50,539 nt of DNA from positions 1-50,539 of the IMG/VR virus record IMGVR_UViG_3300010400_000011; one strand, given 5' to 3'. Made by a program: the position numbers and the translations under genes. The notes beneath the pieces are model-generated. The model saw only the letters and a list, made by a program, of their open reading frames with translations. It searched no databases and was not told the DNA's origin. This DNA is from a virus. Within the stretch, counting starts at the first letter, position 1, and every line of letters starts with the position of its first letter. Of the stretch, positions 11,407 through 50,539 are shown one piece after another.

Positions 11407-11442
11407 TACTCGTGTGTTGCAGTCAGCTAACTAGTTAGCGCT

Positions 11443-11471
11443 TTGACCTATCTAGCTCGGCATGCTACAAT
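11443..11471 (+). promoter_or_regulatory. Middle promoter, TTGACC-17-TACAAT
   Basis: TTGACC (11443-11448), 17-base spacer, TACAAT (11466-11471), followed by ATAGATACTGG. Upstream it carries CTAGTTAGCG. The same -35, spacer length, upstream box and downstream box recur at 14328. It drives the 11512-13866 gene cluster. Confidence 0.85.
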
Positions 11472-11511
11472 ATAGATACTGGCATCTCGTCAGTAACTGA
11501 AGGGGAAAGAA

Positions 11512-13875: not shown

Positions 13876-14319
13876 ATGGTTAAGGTATATCTAACCTGCG
13901 GCGGATCACCGCTTTTATCACAGATACAAAGGGCTGTCAAGGCCTTTGTTATTCTTTTCTTCCTATCATCGGGGGTTGCGCATGGCATACCTAGCCCTTC
14001 TGGCCATATTTCTGACGGCGTTCTTAGTGGGAGTAGTCGCGGGGCTGCTCTACTCGTTGCTCGTCCACCTGATCCTCCGGAGGGTACGTTCGAAACTACG
14101 CACGCTCCTGTGATGTACGTCATCATGTGGCCTCCAGTGCCCACTCAAATCGAGCGGATCAGGCAAGAAGCATATCTGCAGCTCATGCAACAAGTACGGC
14201 AGCAGACTGCTGAAATCTCTGCCAAGCCTACTCCGACGTGGCATTACGTCCTTCCAGCTATCGGAGCTATACTGCTGCTGATGGCGGCCAGTTGGGAAAG
14301 GTGGAAGGTCCTCAACTAG
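13876..14319 (+). CDS. Membrane protein, or two frames fused by chance
   Basis: A 147-residue frame with a strong AGGAGGGG ribosome site. It has a hydrophobic segment at about 24-36 (FVILFFLSSGVAHG) and another near the C terminus (VLPAIGAILLLMAASW). Its middle (about 37-78) is Pro/Ser/Gly-rich and lies exactly over a better-looking membrane-protein frame (13982-14113) in the next phase. A second ATG at 14113 would give an independent 68-residue product with the C-terminal helix. The real gene structure is therefore uncertain. Confidence 0.5.
   Translation: MVKVYLTCGGSPLLSQIQRAVKAFVILFFLSSGVAHGIPSPSGHISDGVLSGSSRGAALLVARPPDPPEGTFETTHAPVMYVIMWPPVPTQIERIRQEAYLQLMQQVRQQTAEISAKPTPTWHYVLPAIGAILLLMAASWERWKVLN
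13982..14113 (+). CDS. Embedded small membrane protein in alternative frame
   Basis: A 43-residue frame, MAYLALLAIFLTAFLVGVVA then a second hydrophobic stretch and a basic tail. Starts at an ATG six bases after GGGGG and ends in TGATG overlapping the 14113 ATG. Both hydrophobicity and G/C-rich third positions favour real coding, overlapping the 13876 frame. Confidence 0.45.
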   Translation: MAYLALLAIFLTAFLVGVVAGLLYSLLVHLILRRVRSKLRTLL

Positions 14320-14327
14320 TTAGGCGT

Positions 14328-14356
14328 TTGACCTGCCAAGATAAGTGTGGTAGTAT
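14328..14356 (+). promoter_or_regulatory. Middle promoter, TTGACC-17-TAGTAT
   Basis: TTGACC (14328-14333), 17-base spacer, TAGTAT (14351-14356), overlapping ATAGATACTGG. The upstream box CTAGTTAGGCG matches that at 11443. Predicted leader to the ATG at 14377 is only about 14 bases. Confidence 0.8.
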
Positions 14357-14376
14357 ATAGATACTGGGAGAGGGAA

Positions 14377-17306: not shown

Positions 17307-18017
17307 ATGGGCATTCAACAAACCGCTAATACTTTCGCCAAGCTTTTTGGTCAGGGTATTAACTTTCCTGACGCTGCAGAAGCTCGTTGGATCACCGACT
17401 CAGTTCGGCACTCTCCCGACCTTGGGTATCTCGAACAGTTTGAGTTTCAACTCCTGTTCGCCGCAGACGATACCAAGCTCAACCATTCCCACCACTGCCT
17501 GATCGAGGACAGCGCATTCGTTGCGAATGCCTTTACCGCCAATGCCTTCGAGTACTCATATCTCGAAACTGGCGAAGATCGGTTGCCGATCCCGATGATG
17601 AGCAGAATGCTCCATCAAACGATCAGGTACTTCCCCCCTCCTCTCAAAATCCAAGGACAGATCTTCGCGATCAGGCCTTATCAATTCAGAGAGCTTGACA
17701 ACTACAAGCAAAATACTGTACAATTCCGTCGTAAGCGTGTGAACTTAATCGTTCCGTACCGCGAGGTCAATCGAACGCAGTACTACAACGACGAATACGA
17801 CATGTACCAAGACCTTCCTCTCGTCCTCCAAGGAAAAGCTGTAGAGAGTCGAGAGCGCGTCCACATCGTCCGTGCTTGGATGTACGTCGGCATGGAAGAG
17901 TACTGGAATAACCTGCTCGACGCTGGCTTCCGAGGATTTAAAACAGTTAACATTTTTGAGTCACGGCGTCCGTGGCTAAAGGAGTATTATGCTTTCCCTA
18001 AACGACCGCTCAAGTAA
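17307..18017 (+). CDS. Unknown protein upstream of primase-helicase
   Basis: A 236-residue protein starting at ATG 17307 (MGIQQTANTFAKLFGQGINF) with GGAGGAG upstream. The central RPYQFRELDNYKQN and the later RAWMYVGMEEYW resemble the ELDxYE-type and strand elements of gamma-glutamylcyclotransferase-like (AIG2-like) folds, but the similarity is by eye and weak. Its end overlaps the primase-helicase start by 29 bases, so the two are co-translated. Confidence 0.7.
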   Translation: MGIQQTANTFAKLFGQGINFPDAAEARWITDSVRHSPDLGYLEQFEFQLLFAADDTKLNHSHHCLIEDSAFVANAFTANAFEYSYLETGEDRLPIPMMSRMLHQTIRYFPPPLKIQGQIFAIRPYQFRELDNYKQNTVQFRRKRVNLIVPYREVNRTQYYNDEYDMYQDLPLVLQGKAVESRERVHIVRAWMYVGMEEYWNNLLDAGFRGFKTVNIFESRRPWLKEYYAFPKRPLK

Positions 18018-19599
18018 AGCGGTAGGTAACGAAAGGTGTCCCGAGTGCGCTAGTCATGGTCGGGACACCTCTCATGATAATTTAATTGTTTTCGACGACG
18101 GGCATAAACATTGCTTTGCCTGTAACCACCATATTGGAGTTAATGGATTGAATGGAAGTCTTTCTGATACTGAGTATACTTTTGAATATTTACCTTTACG
18201 GGGCATTGACGTTGCAACGTTTAGAAAATATGGTGCTAAAACAAAGATTGACAAAGACGGAAAACCTATTGCTGTCAAGTACCCAGAAAGAAACGGGAGC
18301 TTTCATGTTCGTCCGATAGAAGGTAAATTAAAAGCTTACCACGAGGGCGAATACAAAGCTGGTTGTTTTGGCATTGATAAGTTTGTGCCCGGTTCTCACC
18401 GCCACATCGTAATTACCGAGGGGTATGAAGATGCGCTTTCTCTTCAGATGGTTCTACATTGTCCCGTCGTGTCTGTACACAGCAGCGGTAGTGCTGTCGC
18501 AGACGTTGGCGCTGACCGATCCGCAATTAACGCATACGACCGCATATATCTCGCGTTCGATGGAGATGAGGCGGGAAGAGATGCGGCAGCTGCGGTCGCA
18601 AAGCTATTCGATTATTCGAAGCTTTTTCAAATCAAGTTCCCCGGAGGCAACCGAAAGGACGCCAACGACTTCGTCCAGCACGGAGAACACGAGCAACTAA
18701 GGAGCCTATTCGAGAGCGCCAAGAAGTTCCTTCCCGACAACATCGAGAGCGAACTCAGGGTGTTCAAGAACATCCTGTTTGAGGCTCCTAAAGCTGGAGT
18801 ATCTTACGGGGTGCCAACGCTTGACTTTATGACTTACGGCATTCGCACTGGGGAAAGCGTACTGCTTACAGCTCAGGAGGGTGTTGGTAAGACTGAGGTC
18901 ATGCATAAGATCATGTACTCAATCTTAAAGGAACACCCCGATGCAGCCGTCGCAGGAATATTCTTGGAAGAACCTAAGAAACGATTGCTTCAAGCACTTG
19001 CGGGCATCTATCTCCGCCGCCCAGTGCATCTCCCGGATTGCGGCGTTACGGACATTGAGATTTACGACGCGGTACAGGCCCTTGTTAGGCACGATGACCG
19101 CCTACACATCTACTCTCACTTTGGGTCTGATGATCCAGAGCATATACTCGACACCATACGATTTCTCGTTAGTGCTCGTGGCTGTCGGTATGTCTTCCTG
19201 GATCACATTACTATGGTTGTCAGCGGTCTTGGAGGAGATAACGAACGGCGGGCTCTCGACTATCTTTCGACGAGACTCGAAATGCTCGTCAAAGAGCTCG
19301 ATTTCGCCCTTGTCGTCGTCTCGCACGTCAACGACGACGGCCTCACAAGAGGCAGCCGAAACATCAGCAAAATAGCTGACATTCGTATTGATCTGACACG
19401 CGACATCAAGTCGTCTGACCCGATAATCAGGCGGACGACTAATTTAATGATTTCAAAGAACAGGTTCTGTGGGCGCACTGGACCGGCTGGACAGTTGCTG
19501 TTTGATCCTGCAACTTACACGCTAAACGAGGATACCGGCTATGGCATCGCAACCAATCCAGCAAACGATAACCGGAGAATTGAGGAAATGGCATCGTGA
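17989..19599 (+). CDS. T7 gp4-like bifunctional primase-helicase
   Basis: A 536-residue replisome protein. It has an N-terminal zinc-binding domain with Cys17, Cys20, Cys42 and Cys45; a TOPRIM primase domain with Glu144 (ITEGYED) and Asp191/Asp193 (AFDGDEAG); and a RecA-type helicase domain with Walker A AQEGVGKT (295-302) and a Walker B-like FLDHIT. It unwinds the fork and makes RNA primers for the DNA polymerase. Length is close to T7 gp4 (566). The AAAGGAG site before ATG 17989 fixes the start. Confidence 0.96.
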   Translation: MLSLNDRSSKAVGNERCPECASHGRDTSHDNLIVFDDGHKHCFACNHHIGVNGLNGSLSDTEYTFEYLPLRGIDVATFRKYGAKTKIDKDGKPIAVKYPERNGSFHVRPIEGKLKAYHEGEYKAGCFGIDKFVPGSHRHIVITEGYEDALSLQMVLHCPVVSVHSSGSAVADVGADRSAINAYDRIYLAFDGDEAGRDAAAAVAKLFDYSKLFQIKFPGGNRKDANDFVQHGEHEQLRSLFESAKKFLPDNIESELRVFKNILFEAPKAGVSYGVPTLDFMTYGIRTGESVLLTAQEGVGKTEVMHKIMYSILKEHPDAAVAGIFLEEPKKRLLQALAGIYLRRPVHLPDCGVTDIEIYDAVQALVRHDDRLHIYSHFGSDDPEHILDTIRFLVSARGCRYVFLDHITMVVSGLGGDNERRALDYLSTRLEMLVKELDFALVVVSHVNDDGLTRGSRNISKIADIRIDLTRDIKSSDPIIRRTTNLMISKNRFCGRTGPAGQLLFDPATYTLNEDTGYGIATNPANDNRRIEEMAS

Positions 19600-20950: not shown

Positions 20951-21088
20951 ATGTTTCGCAATCCGTTTGTGGACTTTCTGGTGACACTGCTTGGAGTAGG
21001 TGTGGTTCTGCTCCTCCTCCTCTACCTCACCGGCAACATCCATTGCTGGAACCTCCCTATCATCGGCCGCGGCTGCAACATCGGCTAA
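20951..21088 (+). CDS. Small membrane protein
   Basis: A 45-residue protein with one membrane helix (VTLLGVGVVLLLLLYLTG) and two Cys after it (HCWNLP, GRGCNIG). AGGAGAAG precedes the ATG. It may be a superinfection-exclusion or host-membrane factor; unproven. Confidence 0.6.
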   Translation: MFRNPFVDFLVTLLGVGVVLLLLLYLTGNIHCWNLPIIGRGCNIG

Positions 21089-21177
21089 CAACACACGCAG
21101 GGGCTCCGTATGAACTACAAGCCCCTGCGTATTCCTTAGCACATAAGTGCACAAACTCCCTACAAGAGGAGCGCACA

Positions 21178-22050
21178 ATGAACTTCCAGGAACGTGAACG
21201 TTTTCGCCGGATGAAGAACATCCAGAAATGGATGGCTTTTCCGGGTAAAGCAAAGAAAGTCGTCAACCCGCCAGAACCGCAGGGATTTAAACTTGTAGAG
21301 CCGGCTGACGCTTGCAAGCTTGCCAACATCATGAAGGTTGGCATTAATGCCAACATGGTTGTCGGGCATAATCGTTGGGGTGACCAGATCACAAAGCCTA
21401 AGGCTTCGCCTTTCCAGTGTCCTTGGAACTTCATTGCTCGTCTTGAGAAGCGCGGGTTCAAGGTTCTAGGACGAGGTGCTTACAGCACTGTTCTGGCTAA
21501 GGATGGGTCAGATCGCGTCATCAAGGTCAGCAGGACGTTGGATAACTGGATCGACTACATCCAGTGGGGCGCTAAGAAGGGATACGCCGGAAACTTCGTT
21601 CCTCGCGTGTATTCTTGGAAGCGCCACACCAATCCAAGCGGTGAAAAGAACGAGTGGAATAACGAACGTGAATGGTCGGTGGCTATTGTGGAACGAATGG
21701 ATGATGTCCTTTCGGATCACAAGAAAGACATGGCTCTGATTTTGAGCTTGTATTATCCAGCTCAGTGTGGTAATACAATGGCTAAGGTTTACATGGAAGA
21801 CCTAAGCCCCGGTTCAGCGAAGTTCTTCGAAGAGCTTGCCGCCAACCAGTTTGCATCAGACATCGCCGGCAAGAACGTCATGGTTCGCAAGAACGGTTCG
21901 CTGTGCGTTACCGATCCAGCTTGTGGTTCCATCAAGACAGACAAACGACGACTTCGGACGGGGGAGCTTTCCCCCGCTCCATTTTCATTAAGGAATTTCA
22001 TTGAGGGTTGTAATAGATATAGAAGCGAATGGATTGCACAACCCAACTAA
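21178..22050 (+). CDS. Protein-kinase-like protein (T7 gp0.7-like)
   Basis: A 290-residue protein starting at ATG 21178 after AGAGGAG. It has kinase-fold landmarks: a Gly-rich loop LGRGAYSTVLA (97-107), a VIKV lysine at 116, and a catalytic-loop pattern Asp228-IAGK-Asn233 followed exactly 13 residues later by Asp246 (TDP). The D-x4-N spacing and the 13-residue step to the metal-binding Asp match canonical kinases, although HRD and DFG are replaced. T7 gp0.7 phosphorylates host RNA polymerase and RNases; a similar take-over role is the natural inference. Confidence 0.78.
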   Translation: MNFQERERFRRMKNIQKWMAFPGKAKKVVNPPEPQGFKLVEPADACKLANIMKVGINANMVVGHNRWGDQITKPKASPFQCPWNFIARLEKRGFKVLGRGAYSTVLAKDGSDRVIKVSRTLDNWIDYIQWGAKKGYAGNFVPRVYSWKRHTNPSGEKNEWNNEREWSVAIVERMDDVLSDHKKDMALILSLYYPAQCGNTMAKVYMEDLSPGSAKFFEELAANQFASDIAGKNVMVRKNGSLCVTDPACGSIKTDKRRLRTGELSPAPFSLRNFIEGCNRYRSEWIAQPN

Positions 22051-23935
22051 GATTTGGTTAGTTGTTTGCAAAGACATTGATACTGGTGAATATAATATAT
22101 TTAGAAAGGTTTCAGATGACGATATTGAACTACGTAGATTACGTGACTACCTTAGTGGCGCTAAGCTTGTCATTGGCCACAATTACCTTGGCTACGACGG
22201 TGTGCATTTACTTAGACTTACGGGAATTGAAGTCCCAACTGAACAAGTTCTTGATACCCTCATTGTCAGCAAACTCGTAGACTTTTCACGACAAAGTCAT
22301 TCGGTAGAAGGCTATGGAGAAGAGTTCGGATTACCAAAGGGAAACTTTACAGATTTCAGTAAATATTCCATTGCTATGGAAGAGTACTGCATTAGAGACG
22401 TGGATATTACGGAGCGCATTTATAACAAGTATCTTAAGTATATTTCTAATAGGGATCGCCAGCCTAGTATCCGCCTGGAACATAGTTTTCAATTAGTTTG
22501 TAATGATTTGGAGAAGAATGGATTTGCTTTCAACACAGCTAAAGCTCAGCAATTATTAGATAAAGTACAGACAGAGCTAGCTACGTTAGACAAGGACATC
22601 CTTTCTTCTTTTCCACCCCGTGAGGTATTAATTCGTGAGTTCACGCCTAAGGCTACTAAGTTTGGGACTATTAATAAATCTTCTGTGCCTCGCGTCTTAC
22701 ATGATCGAATGTGTGATTTCGAGATTGGAAAGACTTATAGACATACTAGACAAGAAGAGTTTAACCCTAGTAGTCACAAACAAATTATCAACGTCCTTAA
22801 CGAGGCGGGCTGGAAACCTATAGATAAAACTAAGACGCACATCGAAACAGAACGTGCAATAAATACTGGCAGATCAGATATTCATTTGACACAAGCTGAA
22901 GCATATGCTAAGCTTGAGATACTAAAGAAGGTCGGATGGAAGGTTAACGAAAACAATCTAGAAACTCTCCCACCTTCCGCTCCAACTTCTGCCCGCCTCC
23001 TCGCGAAGCGCATCCTGCTTGAGTCCCGCCGCCGAACATTAACTGAGTGGCTGGACCTAGTGTCAGTGGATGACCGTATCCATGGCCGCTTCTACGGTCT
23101 CGGCGCTTGGACTCACAGGATGGCGCATCAAGCGCCAAATACCGCGAACATACCCAACGAGTTTGATACTGCTGGAAAACGAAAACTTTTAGGGAAAGAA
23201 CTCCGTAGCCTTTGGATGGCCCCTAGAGGTAGATTACTCGTTGGGTGTGACGCTGAAGGTATTCAGCTTCGTATCTTTGCGCATTACATCAACGATCCTG
23301 ACTTCACACGTTCATTAGTCGAAGGTAAGAAGGAGGATAAGAGTGACCCACACAGCCTTAATCAAAGTATTCTCGGAGACGTCTGCAAAAGCAGAGCAGC
23401 AGCAAAACGATTTATTTATGCGCTGCTTCTCGGAGCGGGCAAAGGTAAACTGCGTGAAATTCTTGATTGCTCTGAAGAAGCTGCAGATCAAGCTTACGAG
23501 CGACTCTTGGCTAGATATACGGGATTTGCCTACCTCAAAGAGAAGGTCATACCTGCTGACGCTAAACGAGGATGGTTCGTTGGACTTGACGGCCGTGCAG
23601 TGCGAATACCTGGTGCGGAAGTTGGATCACGCAGACATCTGGCAATGTCTGGGTATCTCCAAAACGGAGAGGCTGTAGTAATGAAGATGGCCACCCTGAA
23701 GTGGTGGCCTTTACTGAAACAATACGACGCGAAGCTTGTAAACTTCGTGCACGATGAATGGCAAGTCGAATGTCCAAATAATATGACTATTGCTTTAGCC
23801 ATTGCTGATATGATGGCTAAGAGCCTACAGCACGTCGGAGAGGAATTGGGTCTTAAATGCCCGCTGGCAGGCTCTTACTGGAATGATGATTTAAAAGATT
23901 ACACAATTGCTACCAACTGGAGTAAGACACATTGA
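22001..23935 (+). CDS. Family A (T7-type) DNA polymerase with 3'-5' exonuclease
   Basis: A 644-residue replicative polymerase. The N-terminal exonuclease has DIEANG (Asp6, Glu8) and GHNYLGYDG. Polymerase motif A is DAEGIQLR with Asp417. Motif B is R465xxxK469 ending YALLLGAG. Motif C is HDE at 584-586. It starts at TTG 22001 with AAGGAA upstream and overlaps the kinase gene by 50 bases. Length compares with T7 gp5 (704). It would work with the 17989 primase-helicase and the 24060 SSB; host thioredoxin use is unknown. Confidence 0.97.
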   Translation: MRVVIDIEANGLHNPTKIWLVVCKDIDTGEYNIFRKVSDDDIELRRLRDYLSGAKLVIGHNYLGYDGVHLLRLTGIEVPTEQVLDTLIVSKLVDFSRQSHSVEGYGEEFGLPKGNFTDFSKYSIAMEEYCIRDVDITERIYNKYLKYISNRDRQPSIRLEHSFQLVCNDLEKNGFAFNTAKAQQLLDKVQTELATLDKDILSSFPPREVLIREFTPKATKFGTINKSSVPRVLHDRMCDFEIGKTYRHTRQEEFNPSSHKQIINVLNEAGWKPIDKTKTHIETERAINTGRSDIHLTQAEAYAKLEILKKVGWKVNENNLETLPPSAPTSARLLAKRILLESRRRTLTEWLDLVSVDDRIHGRFYGLGAWTHRMAHQAPNTANIPNEFDTAGKRKLLGKELRSLWMAPRGRLLVGCDAEGIQLRIFAHYINDPDFTRSLVEGKKEDKSDPHSLNQSILGDVCKSRAAAKRFIYALLLGAGKGKLREILDCSEEAADQAYERLLARYTGFAYLKEKVIPADAKRGWFVGLDGRAVRIPGAEVGSRRHLAMSGYLQNGEAVVMKMATLKWWPLLKQYDAKLVNFVHDEWQVECPNNMTIALAIADMMAKSLQHVGEELGLKCPLAGSYWNDDLKDYTIATNWSKTH

Positions 23936-24063
23936 CGAATGAAGAGATTGAACGTTTAATCGATTACATCGCAGACCCTACAAAAGCTTATCTTGAGTTT
24001 TCATTGGATGAAAGCAATACAATCATTGAAGCTTTAGAAGCATACAAGGAAATTAATAATTGA
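23932..24063 (+). CDS. Tiny acidic protein between polymerase and SSB
   Basis: A 43-residue acidic helical frame (start TTG; TNEEIERLIDYIADPTKAYL) overlapping the polymerase stop (TTGA) and itself overlapped by the SSB start. The tight coupling and the AT-rich codon use matching the polymerase support translation. Possible polymerase or SSB accessory; unknown. Confidence 0.5.
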   Translation: MTNEEIERLIDYIADPTKAYLEFSLDESNTIIEALEAYKEINN

Positions 24064-24533
24064 TACAAGATACCCGCACATTTGACATCTCTCCAAAGTC
24101 TGACCAAGTCAAGTTCAGAGGAAAGGTCACGTGGGCACAGTTGATTGACCCTAACAAGTTCGGCAATTGGAGCCTCAACCTCTACCCAGACCCTGACAGT
24201 CTTGAACGACTGCGGGAGCTGACTTTGAAGAATGTCTTCAAGAAAGACGACGATGGTTATTATCTTCAGATAAGCCGTCAGAGTAACGTCGAGTTCGTCA
24301 AAGGAGTTCAAACTGGACTGACACCTCCTAAACTTCAGATGAAGGATGGAAGTCCTGTAACTGAACGTATCGGTGATGGAAGCATTTGTGAAGTCACTTG
24401 TGAACTCAGGAAGTATAAAGTCCCTAACTCAGAGAAATGGGGCAATGCCATACGTTTATATCGTGTGACTGTCGAGGAATTCGTTCCTTCTCAGTACAAG
24501 AAAGACGAAGGTTGGGATGGTAAGACGTCCTAA
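24060..24533 (+). CDS. Single-stranded DNA-binding protein (gp2.5/DUF2815-like)
   Basis: A 157-residue protein with the FRGKVTWAQLIDPNKFGNWS...LYPDP start typical of phage DUF2815/gp2.5-type OB-fold SSBs, then a KKDDDGYYLQISR strand and a GDGSICEVTCEL strand. It starts at TTG 24060 with AAGGA nine bases upstream. Position directly behind the DNA polymerase fits. The C terminus (KKDEGWDGKTS) is less acidic than T7 gp2.5. It would coat single strands during replication and recombination. Confidence 0.82.
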   Translation: MIQDTRTFDISPKSDQVKFRGKVTWAQLIDPNKFGNWSLNLYPDPDSLERLRELTLKNVFKKDDDGYYLQISRQSNVEFVKGVQTGLTPPKLQMKDGSPVTERIGDGSICEVTCELRKYKVPNSEKWGNAIRLYRVTVEEFVPSQYKKDEGWDGKTS

Positions 24534-24708
24534 CCTGTTGGCTTAGTCAGCAGAAGGTCTGTTGACTCACAGTTGTAGTCGAGAAGTCAACCGGAGCGCC
24601 CCTACCCGTTGCAACAATGGGGCTCAAGAGTTGCTGATGGCGATGGAAAAACAGCACCCCGCTCGCAAGAGTTTCGTGTCTAGCGAATGCAAAGTGGGTT
24701 TTCGCACA

Positions 24709-24740
24709 AATAGCTCCCGGTTACTCGGGGCTATTTTCTC
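24709..24740 (+). terminator. Intrinsic terminator at the front of the non-coding region
   Basis: AATAGC(T)CCCG pairs with CGGGGCTATT (10 bp, one bulged T), followed by TTCTCTT. It lies 175 bases after the SSB stop. It may end the replication mRNA and separate it from the giant RNA that follows. 24534-24708 has no ORF but contains TTGACT/AGTCAA (24562-24567 with 24585-24590) and CCGTTG-CAA-CAATGG stems. Confidence 0.75.
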
Positions 24741-25454
24741 TTCGGGGTGAAGCTTTCGGCCAGACGTCTTTAGGCAAGGAAAGTGAGACAGAAGAACTAG
24801 TAGCTGCCACTAGTCCCCATAAGCAGCACAATTTATTAATCTACCGACGGGAAGAGCTAATCGCTATCCGTCGTCGACTGTAGCTCAAGCAGAGCCCCAC
24901 ATTGTATAGTCTTGTGTCCGGCTAATACCGGAGTAATTCAAGGTGCGGAAGCGTGGGAGGTGGGATTATTAGCAGTGTCCCCGGTCAAATACTCCCGCAG
25001 CCTACGGGTCCCTTGGATGGCGATGATCGCCCGTAGAACTCTCCCGAAAACTGATCAGATGGAGAGATGAAACAAGCAACGTATCGCGGCAAGACCGGGT
25101 GCTCGTAAAGCCGGTCGCTATTCATTAATCGAGGTGCAGTATGAGAAACGGCACTAACCGTACCGGCCGATCGTTGAACTCAACAAGTGTGAGTGGAGTA
25201 CGGAACTGCACCTCTTTGAAATCTGTGACGATGAAACCTCATCGCTAGCGCCTTCAGGAAGCGCCGTCACAGTGTGTGCGCATTAAGTTGCGCTCCCTGC
25301 CTGTTAGTGGAGGCCTCAGGTCCAAACTGAGAGCATTGTGCCACGACTGTGCAGCAGCTGGGTTGCCAGCATATCACTGCGAGCATTGTACGCATAATGG
25401 ACCCGCCAGATAAGCGGTCATCCAAATGGCGTGCCGCTACAAATGACTCCAGCT

Positions 25455-25500
25455 AGCTCAGCCCGATGGGTTGTAAAAGTGGTTCAAATCCACCTGAGCT
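25455..25500 (+). ncRNA. Miniature tRNA-like acceptor/T-arm module inside the giant RNA
   Basis: AGCTCAG (25455-61) pairs with CTGAGCT (25494-500) as a 7-bp acceptor-like stem. GTGG-TTCAAAT-CCAC (25479-93) is a T-arm with the canonical TTCAAAT loop. Between them is only a CCC-GAT-GGG hairpin and TTGTAAAA, so there is no D-arm or anticodon arm. It is 46 bases and ends in ATTC rather than CCA. This is like the tRNA half of tmRNA in layout, not a normal tRNA. Confidence 0.65.
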
Positions 25501-26922
25501 ATTCAGGCGTGATCCGACAATCTCTAACCTCCGGGAGCATGGCCCGGTTACCAACTAGGACTTGGCTGTAGGGACACTTCAGGGACACCAGAGATGGAGC
25601 AAACCAATGCTAATCCTGAAGCACGGTGTCGAACCCGTGATAACGGTGGTCCAGTCACAGGCACAAGAGAAAGTCCGAGCGCAGCGGTCCCATTAGCCGC
25701 GTAGCAACCAGAAATATGGCTTATTACCTGTGCTGACACACGGGGACAGTCCTAGCTGTGGGCTAGGGTTTATGACCTCCTTAGGAGGAGCCAGTCCGAA
25801 GAAGTGGCCCTGAAGTGCTAGGGTGCAACCGAAACATGTGGGCACGTTGGGACGTATGAACCCAAATAGGACAAAGATGTCGACTGAGACCTAGGAGCAA
25901 TGATCTACAGGTTCATTGTTGCCGAACTGACGCTGACCCTCTGATGAAGAGGGTATAACTCAACAAACATCACCTTAGCAAAGGCAGAAACAACAAGCGT
26001 TCCATAGGATACTCTGTTTAAAGCTGGGAGCGTTACCCAGACCCTCTAATGAGGTGTGTCATCGGACAAAACCTGAGACCTATGAGGCAGAGACGATAAA
26101 GGGCGGTTCGACTCCTCCCCATGGCGGGCAGCACGTACTGTTGTATAAGCTACTGTTGTTAAAACCTGATGTGAAAGTCCGAAAGGTGAGAACAGGAAAT
26201 AAGACATCCTTACGTACTCCGGTAGCAACAGAGTTTATTGCCAGACGGTTGGCAAACGTAAACGATGCAAAGCGTTAGCGTAAGTACCAGTCAAAAGAGG
26301 AGATTGCCCTCGTTAAAACAGTCAGCCAGCCCTGAGGAAAGATGGGCAAGCCTACGGTAATGGCGTTCCGTTCTAACGTCTAGAGTTAAGGTAAGTCTGA
26401 CCCTCAATCAGACCCACCCACTGTTTGCCACCGTTCACTCGGTAGTTGCCGCAGGGAGCTTGTCCCTCCAATAGACCGCTAGTGTTCACTGACATCAGGA
26501 ACTCGCCAGAGGAAAAGCACCGCTGGGTAAGCGCCTCGAAAGAATGCCAGTATGCCTATTCTTCCTGTCGGCCAACTGTAAATTGGTCCCACTTTAAGGT
26601 CCCGTGAGGGAGTGCCGTGGTGGTGAGTAGATGCCGGAAGTACTCCGGGTCGGAGACAGGCTAAATGAGTAACCCTCAATAGGTGAGATCACCGATCGTC
26701 TATCGGCGGATCAAGCAGACGGCGGATAACGTCGGGGTTATCGTTGTCAACCCAATCCATCATGCAATGTGTACGCTCGGTCGTACTGCTTGTTATGGAG
26801 TAAGTAGCTGCCACAGGCCGGCAGTTGATGAGAACGAACACCAAAGCAACAGTTGTATGGATGACTCGCGCTAGACCGCTGGAAGCAGCGTCAGATGCGA
26901 GATGAGGAGCAGACAAGCCGTA

Positions 26923-26958
26923 GTGATCGTAGATCACGTCATAGTGATTGAAAATCAC
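26923..26958 (+). repeat. Tandem near-identical hairpins
   Basis: GTGATC-GTA-GATCAC (26923-26937) and GTGATT-GAA-AATCAC (26944-26958) are two adjacent 6-bp hairpins of similar sequence near the 3' side of the giant RNA, each preceded by TA. They may be paired docking or protein-binding stems. Confidence 0.7.
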
Positions 26959-27073
26959 GGAAGAGAACCACCGGGTTAAGTGGTAGTTACACGCCGCGTC
27001 CGGGCCGGATGTCCTAAGTCTCTGACGTCGTACAATCGCATTAAGACTAACCCAAGCAGGAAGAGAGGCCATC

Positions 27074-27145
27074 ATGACACATGTCCAACCCCGAACCCTG
27101 CACCAATACTTAAAATACGTCACACAAGCCCCACGTCCCCCATAA
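27074..27145 (+). CDS. Possible 23-residue leader peptide
   Basis: ATG at 27074 to TAA at 27145 encodes MTHVQPRTLHQYLKYVTQAP then RPP. GGAAGAGAGG sits just upstream. It lies between the last strong stems of the non-coding region and the next gene. It could be a leader peptide or chance. Confidence 0.25.
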   Translation: MTHVQPRTLHQYLKYVTQAPRPP

Positions 27146-27162
27146 ATAAATAAGAAGGGCAG

Positions 27163-27184
27163 GGGGCCAGCAAAAGCTGGCTCC
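27163..27184 (+). other. Stem-loop just upstream of the 27205 gene
   Basis: GGGGCCAGC pairs with GCTGGCTCC (9 bp, one G-U) across an AAAA loop. There is no T-tract. It stands about ten bases before the AAGGAGG ribosome site. It may mark an RNA end or processing site rather than a terminator. Confidence 0.65.
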
Positions 27185-27204
27185 TGAGCCACAAGGAGGT
27201 TACG

Positions 27205-27516
27205 ATGAAGGCATCAGATTTGATCCAGCTGTTGGAATACGGCAAGGCGTTCAAGGAGCCTAAGCCGAAGCGCCGCAGCAAGAAGGATTTCGAACTAGAC
27301 GGCATTAGCATCACGATGATGCTGCACAAGAGGTTGGAAGAAGCAGCAGCTTTGAAGAAGCTTCTTGACGACTACGAGAAGGCCAACAAGAAGGAAGAAA
27401 AGAAGGAAGAAAAGAGCTGGTCAATTGCCACGATTTCCACCTTCTATATCGCTACCTTCCCTATCATCGGGCCGCTCGCAGTGCTGGGCTTCCGCTCTCT
27501 GATGCACGGAGGGTAA
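27205..27516 (+). CDS. Small protein with C-terminal membrane segment
   Basis: A 103-residue protein (MKASDLIQLLEYGKAFKEPK) after AAGGAGG. The middle is a Lys/Glu-rich helix (about 45-70). The last third is hydrophobic (STFYIATFPIIGPLAVLGF), one membrane pass. First gene after the giant RNA. It might anchor the RNA or a complex to the membrane, but that is speculation; no family is recognised. Confidence 0.68.
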   Translation: MKASDLIQLLEYGKAFKEPKPKRRSKKDFELDGISITMMLHKRLEEAAALKKLLDDYEKANKKEEKKEEKSWSIATISTFYIATFPIIGPLAVLGFRSLMHGG

Positions 27517-27886: not shown

Positions 27887-28771
27887 TTGAAGAATATTAA
27901 TACTCTCATCAAGGATGTTTATCATGTCGCCGAACAAGAAAGCTGGCTTAGTCCAGATGACGCTTCGCGATATAGTTCTCAAATGGCGACTGCAGTCATG
28001 GAACGGCTCTTGGACGATCGATCCGGACAAGCAGGCCGCCTTCGTCTCTCTGCAATGGGTGAGGTCTGCCCAAGAAGCTTGTGGGCATCGGTTCACGCAC
28101 CAAGCGTACGTGAGAGACTCCCAGCCCACGTCAGGATCAAATTCCACTTTGGCGATGTAGTCGAGGCACTAGCAATAACTCTTGCTAAGGCTGCCGGACA
28201 CACAGTCACAGGAGAGCAAGATGAACTCGAGCTACTTGGCGTCAAGGGTCACAGAGATTGTGTCATTGATGGGGCTATTGTGGATGTCAAGTCTATCAAT
28301 AGCATGGGCTTTCAAAAGGTCAAAGCTAAGCTGGTTGCCGAAGATGTTTTCCTTCGGTCTTATCTGGATCAGCTCGATGGGTATCTTCTGGCATCTGCTA
28401 ACGACCCCTTAGTAACAGTAAAGGATAAGGCCTATCTTTGGTGTATAGACAAAAGTATGGGCCATATGACATTGTATGAACACAAACTTAGATCAGACCA
28501 CATACGTCAAAGGGTTACACAGTATAAGCAATACGTGGCTCTCCCTGAGCCCCCTGCTTGCACGTGCGGTGTCATCCCAGACGGTCAGTCTGGAAACCTT
28601 AGACTTGATCTTAAAGCAAGCTACAATCCTTACAAATACTTCTGCAACCCTCATCTCAGAACTTTCCTCTACAAAGAACGCGGAGGAACCAAACCAGTCC
28701 ACCTCGTGAAGGTTATACGGAAGCCTGACGTCACCGAGGTTGACAGAGACGGACGTATCGTGTATAATTAA
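27887..28771 (+). CDS. PD-(D/E)XK nuclease (Cas4/RecB-like exonuclease)
   Basis: A 294-residue protein. Nuclease core: a conserved GDVVEA with Asp90 and Glu93, then GHRDCVIDGAIVDVKS with Asp124 and the DxK Asp133/Lys135. Four Cys (61, 225, 227, 253) flank the core in the manner of iron-sulphur Cas4/AddB-type nucleases. It would replace T7 gp6 (5'-3' exonuclease) for host DNA breakdown or recombination. The start appears to be TTG 27887 with little Shine-Dalgarno; no closer ATG is in frame. Confidence 0.82.
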   Translation: MKNINTLIKDVYHVAEQESWLSPDDASRYSSQMATAVMERLLDDRSGQAGRLRLSAMGEVCPRSLWASVHAPSVRERLPAHVRIKFHFGDVVEALAITLAKAAGHTVTGEQDELELLGVKGHRDCVIDGAIVDVKSINSMGFQKVKAKLVAEDVFLRSYLDQLDGYLLASANDPLVTVKDKAYLWCIDKSMGHMTLYEHKLRSDHIRQRVTQYKQYVALPEPPACTCGVIPDGQSGNLRLDLKASYNPYKYFCNPHLRTFLYKERGGTKPVHLVKVIRKPDVTEVDRDGRIVYN

Positions 28772-29133
28772 TGTCAGCTAGAGCAAGACATTTACTTAAG
28801 AAATACGGAATAAGTGAGGATCAATATGATATCCTTTTGCGGAAGCAGGGAAGTCGTTGTGCAGTGTGTGGCCGACATTCTGATAGCTTTAAAACCAGAC
28901 TCTCTATCGATCACGATCACCACTCGGGGTTCATCCGAGGACTGCTATGTACGTATTGTAACCGATACGTCGTTGGTCGACACCGTAAAGGTCAAGGTTC
29001 TGAACTACTCAGAGCAGCTTACGAATATCTCATTTCCGACTACCCCGGTTGGATAGTCCCGCCTAAACCCAAACGAAAGAAAAGGAAAAGACATGAAACC
29101 CGAAACAGAAAAATCGCTCTTCAGCGTATTTGA
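28771..29133 (+). CDS. Endonuclease VII-type recombination nuclease
   Basis: A 120-residue protein of the T4 gp49 (endonuclease VII) family. Cys30 and Cys33 (CAVC), the IDHDHHSG motif (Asp47, His48, Asp49, His50), RGLLC (Cys60) and YCN (Cys63) complete the zinc site and catalytic core. It resolves branched DNA before packaging, the role of T7 gp3. ATG overlaps the upstream stop (TAATG). A Lys/Arg-rich tail (about 98-115) may add DNA affinity. Confidence 0.92.
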   Translation: MSARARHLLKKYGISEDQYDILLRKQGSRCAVCGRHSDSFKTRLSIDHDHHSGFIRGLLCTYCNRYVVGRHRKGQGSELLRAAYEYLISDYPGWIVPPKPKRKKRKRHETRNRKIALQRI

Positions 29134-50274: not shown

Positions 50275-50539
50275 TTACGGCCTGTAGTAACGGATACGAA
50301 TCTTAATAGTACCAGCAGTGAAGTTGGCAGTATTAACACGCGCCGTGATGTGATTCACGTTAGCCGTAGTCGTACCGATCAGAGAACCAGCGAAAGTTCC
50401 ACCAGCGGTAATCACAGCTTTTTCACCAGTGGTCATAGAGGCCACGGTTTTAGCTGCGATAAGTCCGTTTGCAGAAGTAACGGTAGTCCGATCAGTCCGC
50501 ATAAGACCGATATCCAAAGTCGCCGTTGCGCCTGCACCA
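50275..50539 (-). CDS. Probable minor capsid/decoration protein, C-terminal part
   Basis: The last part of the 164-residue protein described at 1-353, ending ARVNTANFTAGTIKIRIRYY then RP at the stop in 50275-50277. The frame continues without interruption across the circular joint (50416 joins 1). The region 50417-50539 is the repeated overlap. The strand pattern (alternating hydrophobic/Thr/Arg residues) supports a beta-sheet structural protein. Confidence 0.75.
   Translation of the reverse strand, partial: GAGATATLDIGLMRTDRTTVTSANGLIAAKTVASMTTGEKAVITAGGTFAGSLIGTTTANVNHITARVNTANFTAGTIKIRIRYYRP
50417..50539. repeat. Terminal direct repeat, copy 2 (circular closure)
   Basis: Exact copy of 1-123. 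See copy 1. Confidence 0.95.

Follow-up and report, generated by a model that had tools for sequence, protein, structure and literature searches.

A large, modular structured RNA region followed by a Pro-Pro-stop mini-ORF and a membrane-protein gene in a clade of uncultured soil phages

The GOLLD and ROOL RNAs form cages (PMC12286853). The commonest immediate downstream neighbor of OLE RNA encodes a membrane protein whose cytoplasmic face is charged, which makes OLE a precedent for a large RNA that adjoins its membrane-protein partner (PMC12265935). In E. coli, a C-terminal Pro-Pro interferes with translation termination and arrests ribosomes, with cleavage of the stop codon, as seen for YbeL-PP (PMC3834316). 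Here, we describe a phage locus in which a large structured non-coding region is followed by a mini-ORF ending in Pro-Pro-stop and by the gene for a small membrane protein.

The window, by which we mean the whole stretch of DNA analyzed, is the 50,539-base record of the IMG/VR virus IMGVR_UViG_3300010400_000011. Its first and last 123 bases (1-123 and 50417-50539) are identical; though listed as linear, the record therefore probably represents a complete circular assembly. The virus is a T7-like podovirus, and its nearest named GenBank phage by polymerase is Roseobacter phage CRP-5, at only 40% identity. The only match to the polymerase family in the genome collection (45%) was a contig of a Candidatus Dependentiae MAG (RXKB01000026.1; L100), which is either a hint to the host or a phage contig binned by mistake, and is not conclusive. 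Just before the polymerase gene (21043-22050, plus strand) there is a weak PHROG match (2.6e-9) to the T7-type protein kinase/host-transcription inhibitor family. A 54-nt repeat (74%) at 11429-11482 and 14314-14367 contains a sigma-70-like promoter (TTGACC, 17 nt, TACAAT); these are probably host-type promoters belonging to the early region. A search of 24400-27300 for sigma-70-like promoters found none, and none like that of the 54-nt repeat was found near the RNA.

One ORF ends at 24533 and the next starts at 27205; the stretch that separates them had been described in the initial annotation as free of genes, which is correct apart from a single 23-codon mini-ORF at 27074-27145. Stop codons crowd all six frames, and the largest ORF in 24534-27204 is at most 167 aa long and lies on the opposite strand. 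The period-3 signal was 3.7-9.6, compared to roughly 13-58 in the flanking genes. In an alignment of the window with its nearest relative (L003; polymerase 75% identical), the substitution rates by position modulo 3 were 0.45/0.55/0.52 in the stretch, compared to 0.22/0.18/0.55 in the polymerase gene, and 9 of 28 gaps in the stretch were a multiple of three. A hidden or decayed protein gene is thus ruled out by the stops in all frames, the absence of codon periodicity and the gaps that do not come in threes. The small ORF most widely shared inside the homologous intervals of relatives is that of the membrane protein at the 3' side. The location between SSB and nuclease genes given in the initial annotation is only loosely right: neither Pfam nor PHROG gave a match for the upstream gene, so “SSB” is a mere positional label, and on the other side the membrane-protein gene comes next, with the Cas4-like exonuclease gene starting at 27887.

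Structure had originally been proposed from the many short inverted repeats, and this evidence did not hold up. Compared to coding DNA of the same phages, hairpins with at least four Watson-Crick pairs occurred in the intervals at chance level for loops of 4 nt (761 versus 752), 5 nt (825 versus 806), 6 nt (766 versus 799) and 8 nt (750 versus 735); only those with 7- and 9-nt loops were in excess (992 versus 772 and 916 versus 717). Folded as a single sequence, the plus strand has an unremarkable energy, with most z values from -2 to +1. Both folding energy and the number of inverted repeats are uninformative in this region. The GUGA-capped stem noted earlier (CCC-GUGA-GGG) is present at 26601-26610, but was not found to be a conserved module. 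The conclusion of a giant structured RNA on the plus strand was nevertheless right, and it is the relatives that support it.

An IMG/VR search with the polymerase gave 80 loci, to which 12 more and about 10 found via an RNA motif were added; in all, IMG/VR, the GenBank phages and one genome scan were searched. The IMG/VR polymerase relatives yielded 67 complete homologous intervals of 1.5-4.2 kb, and the comparison of structures took in 77 intervals (171 kb). Where the polymerase is about 49% or more identical, these 1.5-4.2 kb lie between the SSB and exonuclease genes; at 46% or less, there are just 10-840 bp. As far as searched, the region occupies one place, in the replication module, in one phage clade. 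The distance from the upstream gene to the mini-ORF is about 1.1-3.7 kb in the clade, corresponding to about 2-7% of genomes of ~50 kb. The sequence of the intervals diverges fast: the window and its nearest relative are collinear, yet only 49% identical over the RNA. Alignable subgroups exist, while a whole-length alignment of the family is not possible. The 5' part of the intervals is variable and modules 4, 7 and 9 switch position between relatives, while a partial order (3-2-T-arms-mini-ORF) recurs. The RNA stretch of one relative (L064) had no match among GenBank phages. The features of the window are listed in Table 1; the terminator-like hairpin after the upstream gene is a probable boundary before the RNA proper.

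Table 1. Features of the window, numbered from its first base. L-numbers denote relatives, L003 being the nearest.
Feature	Position	Strand	Evidence or remark
Primase/helicase	17989-19599	+	
DNA polymerase	22001-23935	+	
Upstream gene labeled “SSB”	24060-24533		Positional anchor only
Giant structured non-coding RNA, outer limits of region	24534-27073	+	No codon periodicity; homologous non-coding intervals in relatives
Intrinsic terminator-like hairpin after upstream gene	24711-24737	+	Similar hairpin in several relatives, no more than ~400 nt from the upstream gene
Block conserved in L033 and L038	24880-24961	+	75-79% identity, E 6e-11
Part collinear with L003	25058-27202		Collinear blocks; starts at 25058
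Block conserved in L003, includes hairpin 25093-25116	25058-25131	+	88% identity
Junction closed by GAGGTGCAG/CTGCACCTC; AAAGTGCAG/CTGCACTTT in L033	25131-25214	+	Compensatory changes
Inner hairpin of junction, ACTCA/TGAGT; GCCGC/GCGGG in L033 and L051	25178-25194	+	Compensatory changes
Hairpin CTCAG-GUCCAAA-CTGAG, family loop GUCCAWA	25315-25331	+	Family stems 18/51
Hairpin CCGC-CAGAUAA-GCGG, family loop CAGAUNA	25403-25417	+	Family stems 14/20
tRNA-like module TAGCTCA...T-arm (25478-25494)...TGAGCTA, without anticodon arm	25454-25501	+	T-arm family stems; sequence
Hairpin GCGG-UCCCAUUAG-CCGC, family loop UCYCAUUAG	25684-25700	+	Family stems 16/20; compensatory change
Second T-arm GGGCGGTTCGACTCCTCCC; GGTAGG/CCTACC in L003	26101-26119	+	Motif match; compensatory change
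Hairpin GTCTGA-CCCTCAA-TCAGAC	26395-26413	+	Stem GCATGA/TCATGC in L003, GTGTAG/CTACAC in L009; full compensatory change, loop and flanks conserved
Hairpin CCGAT/ATCGG; CTGAT/ATCAG in L003	26692-26706	+	Compensatory change
Mini-ORF MTHVQPRTLHQYLKYVTQAPRPP-stop, 23 codons	27074-27145	+	Shine-Dalgarno-like sequence 27059-27068
Hairpin directly 3' of mini-ORF; GGAGCGGAG/CTCCGCTCC in L003	27163-27184	+	Compensatory change
103-aa protein rich in Lys and Glu; single transmembrane segment predicted close to the C terminus	27205-27516	+	Hydropathy
Cas4-like exonuclease	27887-28771	+	
Endonuclease VII	28771-29133	+	
Head-tail adaptor, terminase, internal virion proteins		-	

Between the upstream gene and this terminator-like hairpin, a 45-nt element (24550-24594) shares 87% identity with one that lies between genes in Rhodobacter phage RcRudolph (L083, 4001-4045); the stems differ by a compensatory change (TTGACT/AGTCAA in the window, CTGACT/AGTCAG in RcRudolph). 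RcSimone-Hastad has a partial match to the RcRudolph intergenic region. The element is perhaps a small RNA of alphaproteobacterial phages; a search of IMG/VR with its pattern returned nothing.

Since hairpins are symmetric under reverse complement, the strand was judged by the identity of the loops, and all motif matches were on the plus strand. The tRNA-type T-arm motif GGUUCRANYCC was found 80 times on the plus strand and not once on the minus strand of 60 intervals (135 kb), compared to 4 and 1 times in 456 kb of upstream genes. T-loop hairpins with a paired stem numbered 80 and 2 on the two strands. Each RNA has only 0-4 T-arms, and across complete phage records, from the clade and from outgroups alike, the pattern is sparse and not diagnostic on its own. 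(The record of one outgroup phage, G006, from which locus L081 derives, has three such motifs, at 922, 3485 and 3663 on the plus strand, which could be tRNAs or other structured RNA.) In a partner-permutation test, hairpins were selected on the loop, for some modules with the closing pair, and the flanks were tested for perfect 3-bp stems. The T-arm stems were paired in 71 of 96 cases, whereas permuted partners gave a mean of 5.3 and a maximum of 16. Similar results were obtained for GUCYCAUUAGC (motif 7; 16 of 20, permuted mean 1.3, maximum 6), GCUGUCUAC (motif 9; 12 of 13, mean 2.1, maximum 8), CCAGAUNAG (motif 4; 14 of 20, mean 2.7, maximum 9) and GUCCAWA (18 of 51, mean 1.1, maximum 6), whereas the control GAAGAAG was paired in 1 of 105 (permuted 2.0). 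An independent count on the alignment of GUCYCAUUAGC gave 96% paired cells, 19 double-sided changes and a covariation score of 0.893, which none of 500 shuffles reached.

In a further module, the downstream strand of GGAGGCUAAAA pairs with varying upstream sequences (at least 5 bp in 17 of 22; null 22%), and a second helix, CCGYN/NRYGG, read by eye, interleaves with the first. The arrangement, whose helices covary, resembles an H-type pseudoknot, and the module would be a good candidate for binding a ligand or a protein. It is missing from the window and frequent in relatives (for example at 644, 188 and 1049 of the L053, L013 and L022 intervals). Consensus folds of eight subgroups were more stable than those of column-shuffled alignments, with a mean z of -1.72 on the plus strand and -1.54 on the minus strand (230 windows); these values are similar, so the strand assignment rests on motif identity. 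The comparison of homologues proposed in the initial annotation revealed compensatory changes in helices and no protein-like codon periodicity. Taken together, the intervals form a family of fast-evolving, large, modular structured non-coding regions on the plus strand, built from hairpins whose loops are conserved and whose stems covary freely, from T-arms of the tRNA type and from what appears to be a pseudoknot. On this comparative evidence, a conserved structured RNA region almost certainly exists.

We compared the region to known RNA families. At the gathering score, no Rfam family matched in the window or in ten relatives. At E <= 10, the window stretch gave only two chance matches. In five relatives searched at E <= 1, the sole matches were a genuine tRNA located beyond the stretch, the antisense match to this tRNA, and two miRNA matches attributable to chance. 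Introns, RNase P and riboswitches were likewise without an Rfam match in the window and relatives, and, since no family matches, the RNA is not GOLLD, ROOL, OLE or HEARO at that sensitivity. The suggested membership in GOLLD or ROOL is thus not borne out, nor is the tRNA neighborhood known for these RNAs, as neither ARAGORN nor the Rfam tRNA model (RF00005) found a tRNA in the window, and the stretches of 60 relatives gave only a few single calls. What stands is the third option raised in the initial annotation, a new and larger class. Elements of a tRNA are present in the form of T-arms with conserved loop and paired stem, and no complete cloverleaf was recognized in the window. The conserved 7-nt loops CUGUCUA, CAGAUAA, CUCUGAA and CUCUCCG look like anticodon loops to the eye, but the statistics do not bear this out: exact loops of reference tRNAs occurred 12 times on the plus and 9 times on the minus strand, and loop grammar was matched by 11.6% and 11.4%, and anticodon mimicry was dropped. 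The partners of these loops may be kissing loops or proteins.

Two genes linked to the RNA, the mini-ORF and the membrane-protein gene, had gone unmentioned in the initial annotation. The mini-ORF of the window ends in Ala-Pro-Arg-Pro-Pro. A Shine-Dalgarno-led ATG ORF of 8-30 codons ending in Pro-Pro-stop was found in 61 of 77 intervals, compared to 6 for the next commonest ending, and the same rules gave 2 such ORFs in 456 kb of genes. When GTG and TTG starts and relaxed Shine-Dalgarno rules were allowed, 66 of the 67 complete intervals had one. The stop codon is UAA in 65 of 67, and the residue before Pro-Pro is Arg in 27 and Gln in 25 (52 of 67 together). Most lengths fall into two groups, 11-15 and 21-25 codons. 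The remaining peptide is not conserved; only Arg/Gln-Pro-Pro-UAA is kept, and the body is free to change. (Motif 8, the 9-mer CCACCUUAA, was rejected as an RNA motif, being the end of this mini-ORF.) The sequence after Pro-Pro-stop folds with a mean z of -2.14, compared to -0.24 in an upstream control (n = 67). Whatever the role of the RNA, a translatable short ORF with a conserved C-terminal Pro-Pro before the stop is a striking natural candidate for termination arrest.

The protein usually encoded next is about 70-120 residues long in the relatives; part of it is rich in Lys and Glu, and a single hydrophobic segment lies close to the C terminus. A matching membrane ORF was detected automatically in 48 of 67 intervals, the other 19 being unrecognized by the automatic criteria. 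In nine outgroup loci without the long interval, neither the mini-ORF nor a Lys/Glu-rich membrane ORF was found; in outgroup L069, on a contig ending near the polymerase, there is one unrelated-looking membrane ORF far upstream. The protein matched no PHROG family at 0.001.

If the region is transcribed as one molecule, it would rank with the largest known structured non-coding RNAs of bacteria and their viruses. Since a whole clade of 50-kb phages keeps it at the expense of about 2-7% of the genome, the RNA must repay its cost. The best explanation, which we hold tentatively, is a membrane-linked ribonucleoprotein (RNP), made in the replication phase, in which termination arrest controls the RNA 3' end or the partner protein. 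The long RNA would be transcribed together with the replication genes, and its modules would be held together by tertiary contacts of the conserved loops and T-loops, so that module order could vary. The charged part of the membrane protein would bind the RNA and hold the RNP at the inner membrane, as with OapA and OLE RNA. A slowly terminating ribosome at Pro-Pro-stop would sit on the 3' edge of the RNA, where it might protect or define the 3' end or time the synthesis of the membrane protein, and the RNP might provide the replicating phage with a scaffold or compartment. It is more doubtful that a trans-acting giant modular RNA forms the core of a membrane-anchored viral RNP with the stalled ribosome as a built-in part or as the maker of the 3' end.

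The fixed order of RNA, mini-ORF, hairpin and gene would also suit a giant cis-acting leader, with the stretch as the 5' untranslated region of the membrane-protein gene, the mini-ORF and hairpin as a translational attenuator, and no function in trans. The window has a CTCCT beyond the hairpin that is able to pair with the AGGAG of the gene. However, the mini-ORF and hairpin alone would suffice for such control, and this reading leaves many independent conserved modules over 1.1-3.7 kb; we know of no attenuator with a leader anywhere near that length. We consider the leader unlikely.

An RNA-only particle similar to GOLLD and ROOL would self-assemble into a multimeric cage and act in the infected cell as a container or by binding ribosomes, with no need of the downstream genes. 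The size and ornate build of this phage RNA, its T-loop modules and its conserved loops, which would suit loop-loop contacts, agree with it, as do the cages that GOLLD and ROOL form (PMC12286853). The lack of an Rfam relationship, a size larger than GOLLD, the variable module order, the missing tRNA island and the linked membrane protein argue against it, and make such a particle quite unlikely.

The modules could also belong to several separate RNAs, since modules 4, 7 and 9 change place and the family cannot be aligned over its whole length. An array of independent structured RNAs would fit the variable 5' part and the terminator after the upstream gene, but the recurring partial order and the scarcity of strong intrinsic terminators inside the intervals beyond the first ~400 nt make it improbable. 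Least probable is a decoy whose T-arms and tRNA-like pieces sequester host tRNA-binding enzymes or tRNA-targeting defense nucleases: the plus-strand bias of the T-arm motif (80 to 0) and the module at 25454-25501 point that way, but its most specific support went with the failed test of anticodon-loop mimicry, T-arms are few, most other conserved loops are not tRNA-like, and the stretch has no tRNA in the window and almost none in relatives.

The locus offers a defined RNA family, candidate tertiary-contact modules, a candidate partner protein and a conserved, putative arrest mini-ORF, which make the role of giant ornate RNAs directly testable. The mini-ORF shares with YbeL-PP and the RAPP arrest peptides ApdA and ApdP a short, Shine-Dalgarno-led reading frame ending in Pro-Pro upstream of a membrane-protein gene. 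It differs from them in that Pro-Pro stands directly before the stop and is preceded by Arg or Gln (52 of 67), not by Arg-Ala, so that the conserved ending is not the RAPP motif Arg-Ala-Pro-Pro; moreover, its body is not conserved, and it lies at the 3' end of a giant RNA. With tRNA and tmRNA, the region shares the exact T-arm consensus on a covarying stem, but it has no acceptor stem with CCA and no anticodon arm, and is missed by ARAGORN and the Rfam tRNA model. Like OLE with OapA, it is a large ornate RNA with a membrane-protein gene downstream, but it matches no Rfam model, belongs to phages rather than Bacillota and has a mini-ORF between RNA and gene, and the adjacent protein has one predicted transmembrane segment where OapA has four helices. 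Like GOLLD and ROOL, it is a large, ornate, phage-borne RNA. It differs in its size of 1.1-3.7 kb (GOLLD members are often just over 800 nt), in the absence of an Rfam match and of a tRNA island, in the linked Pro-Pro-stop mini-ORF and membrane protein, and in its distribution, which as far as searched is limited to one phage clade. We count the RNA as new because every family test failed and because, as far as we found in the open-access literature, the cassette of RNA, Pro-Pro-stop and membrane protein has no described counterpart. The descriptive category of large ornate RNA, common to GOLLD, ROOL and OLE, fits the present RNA as well.
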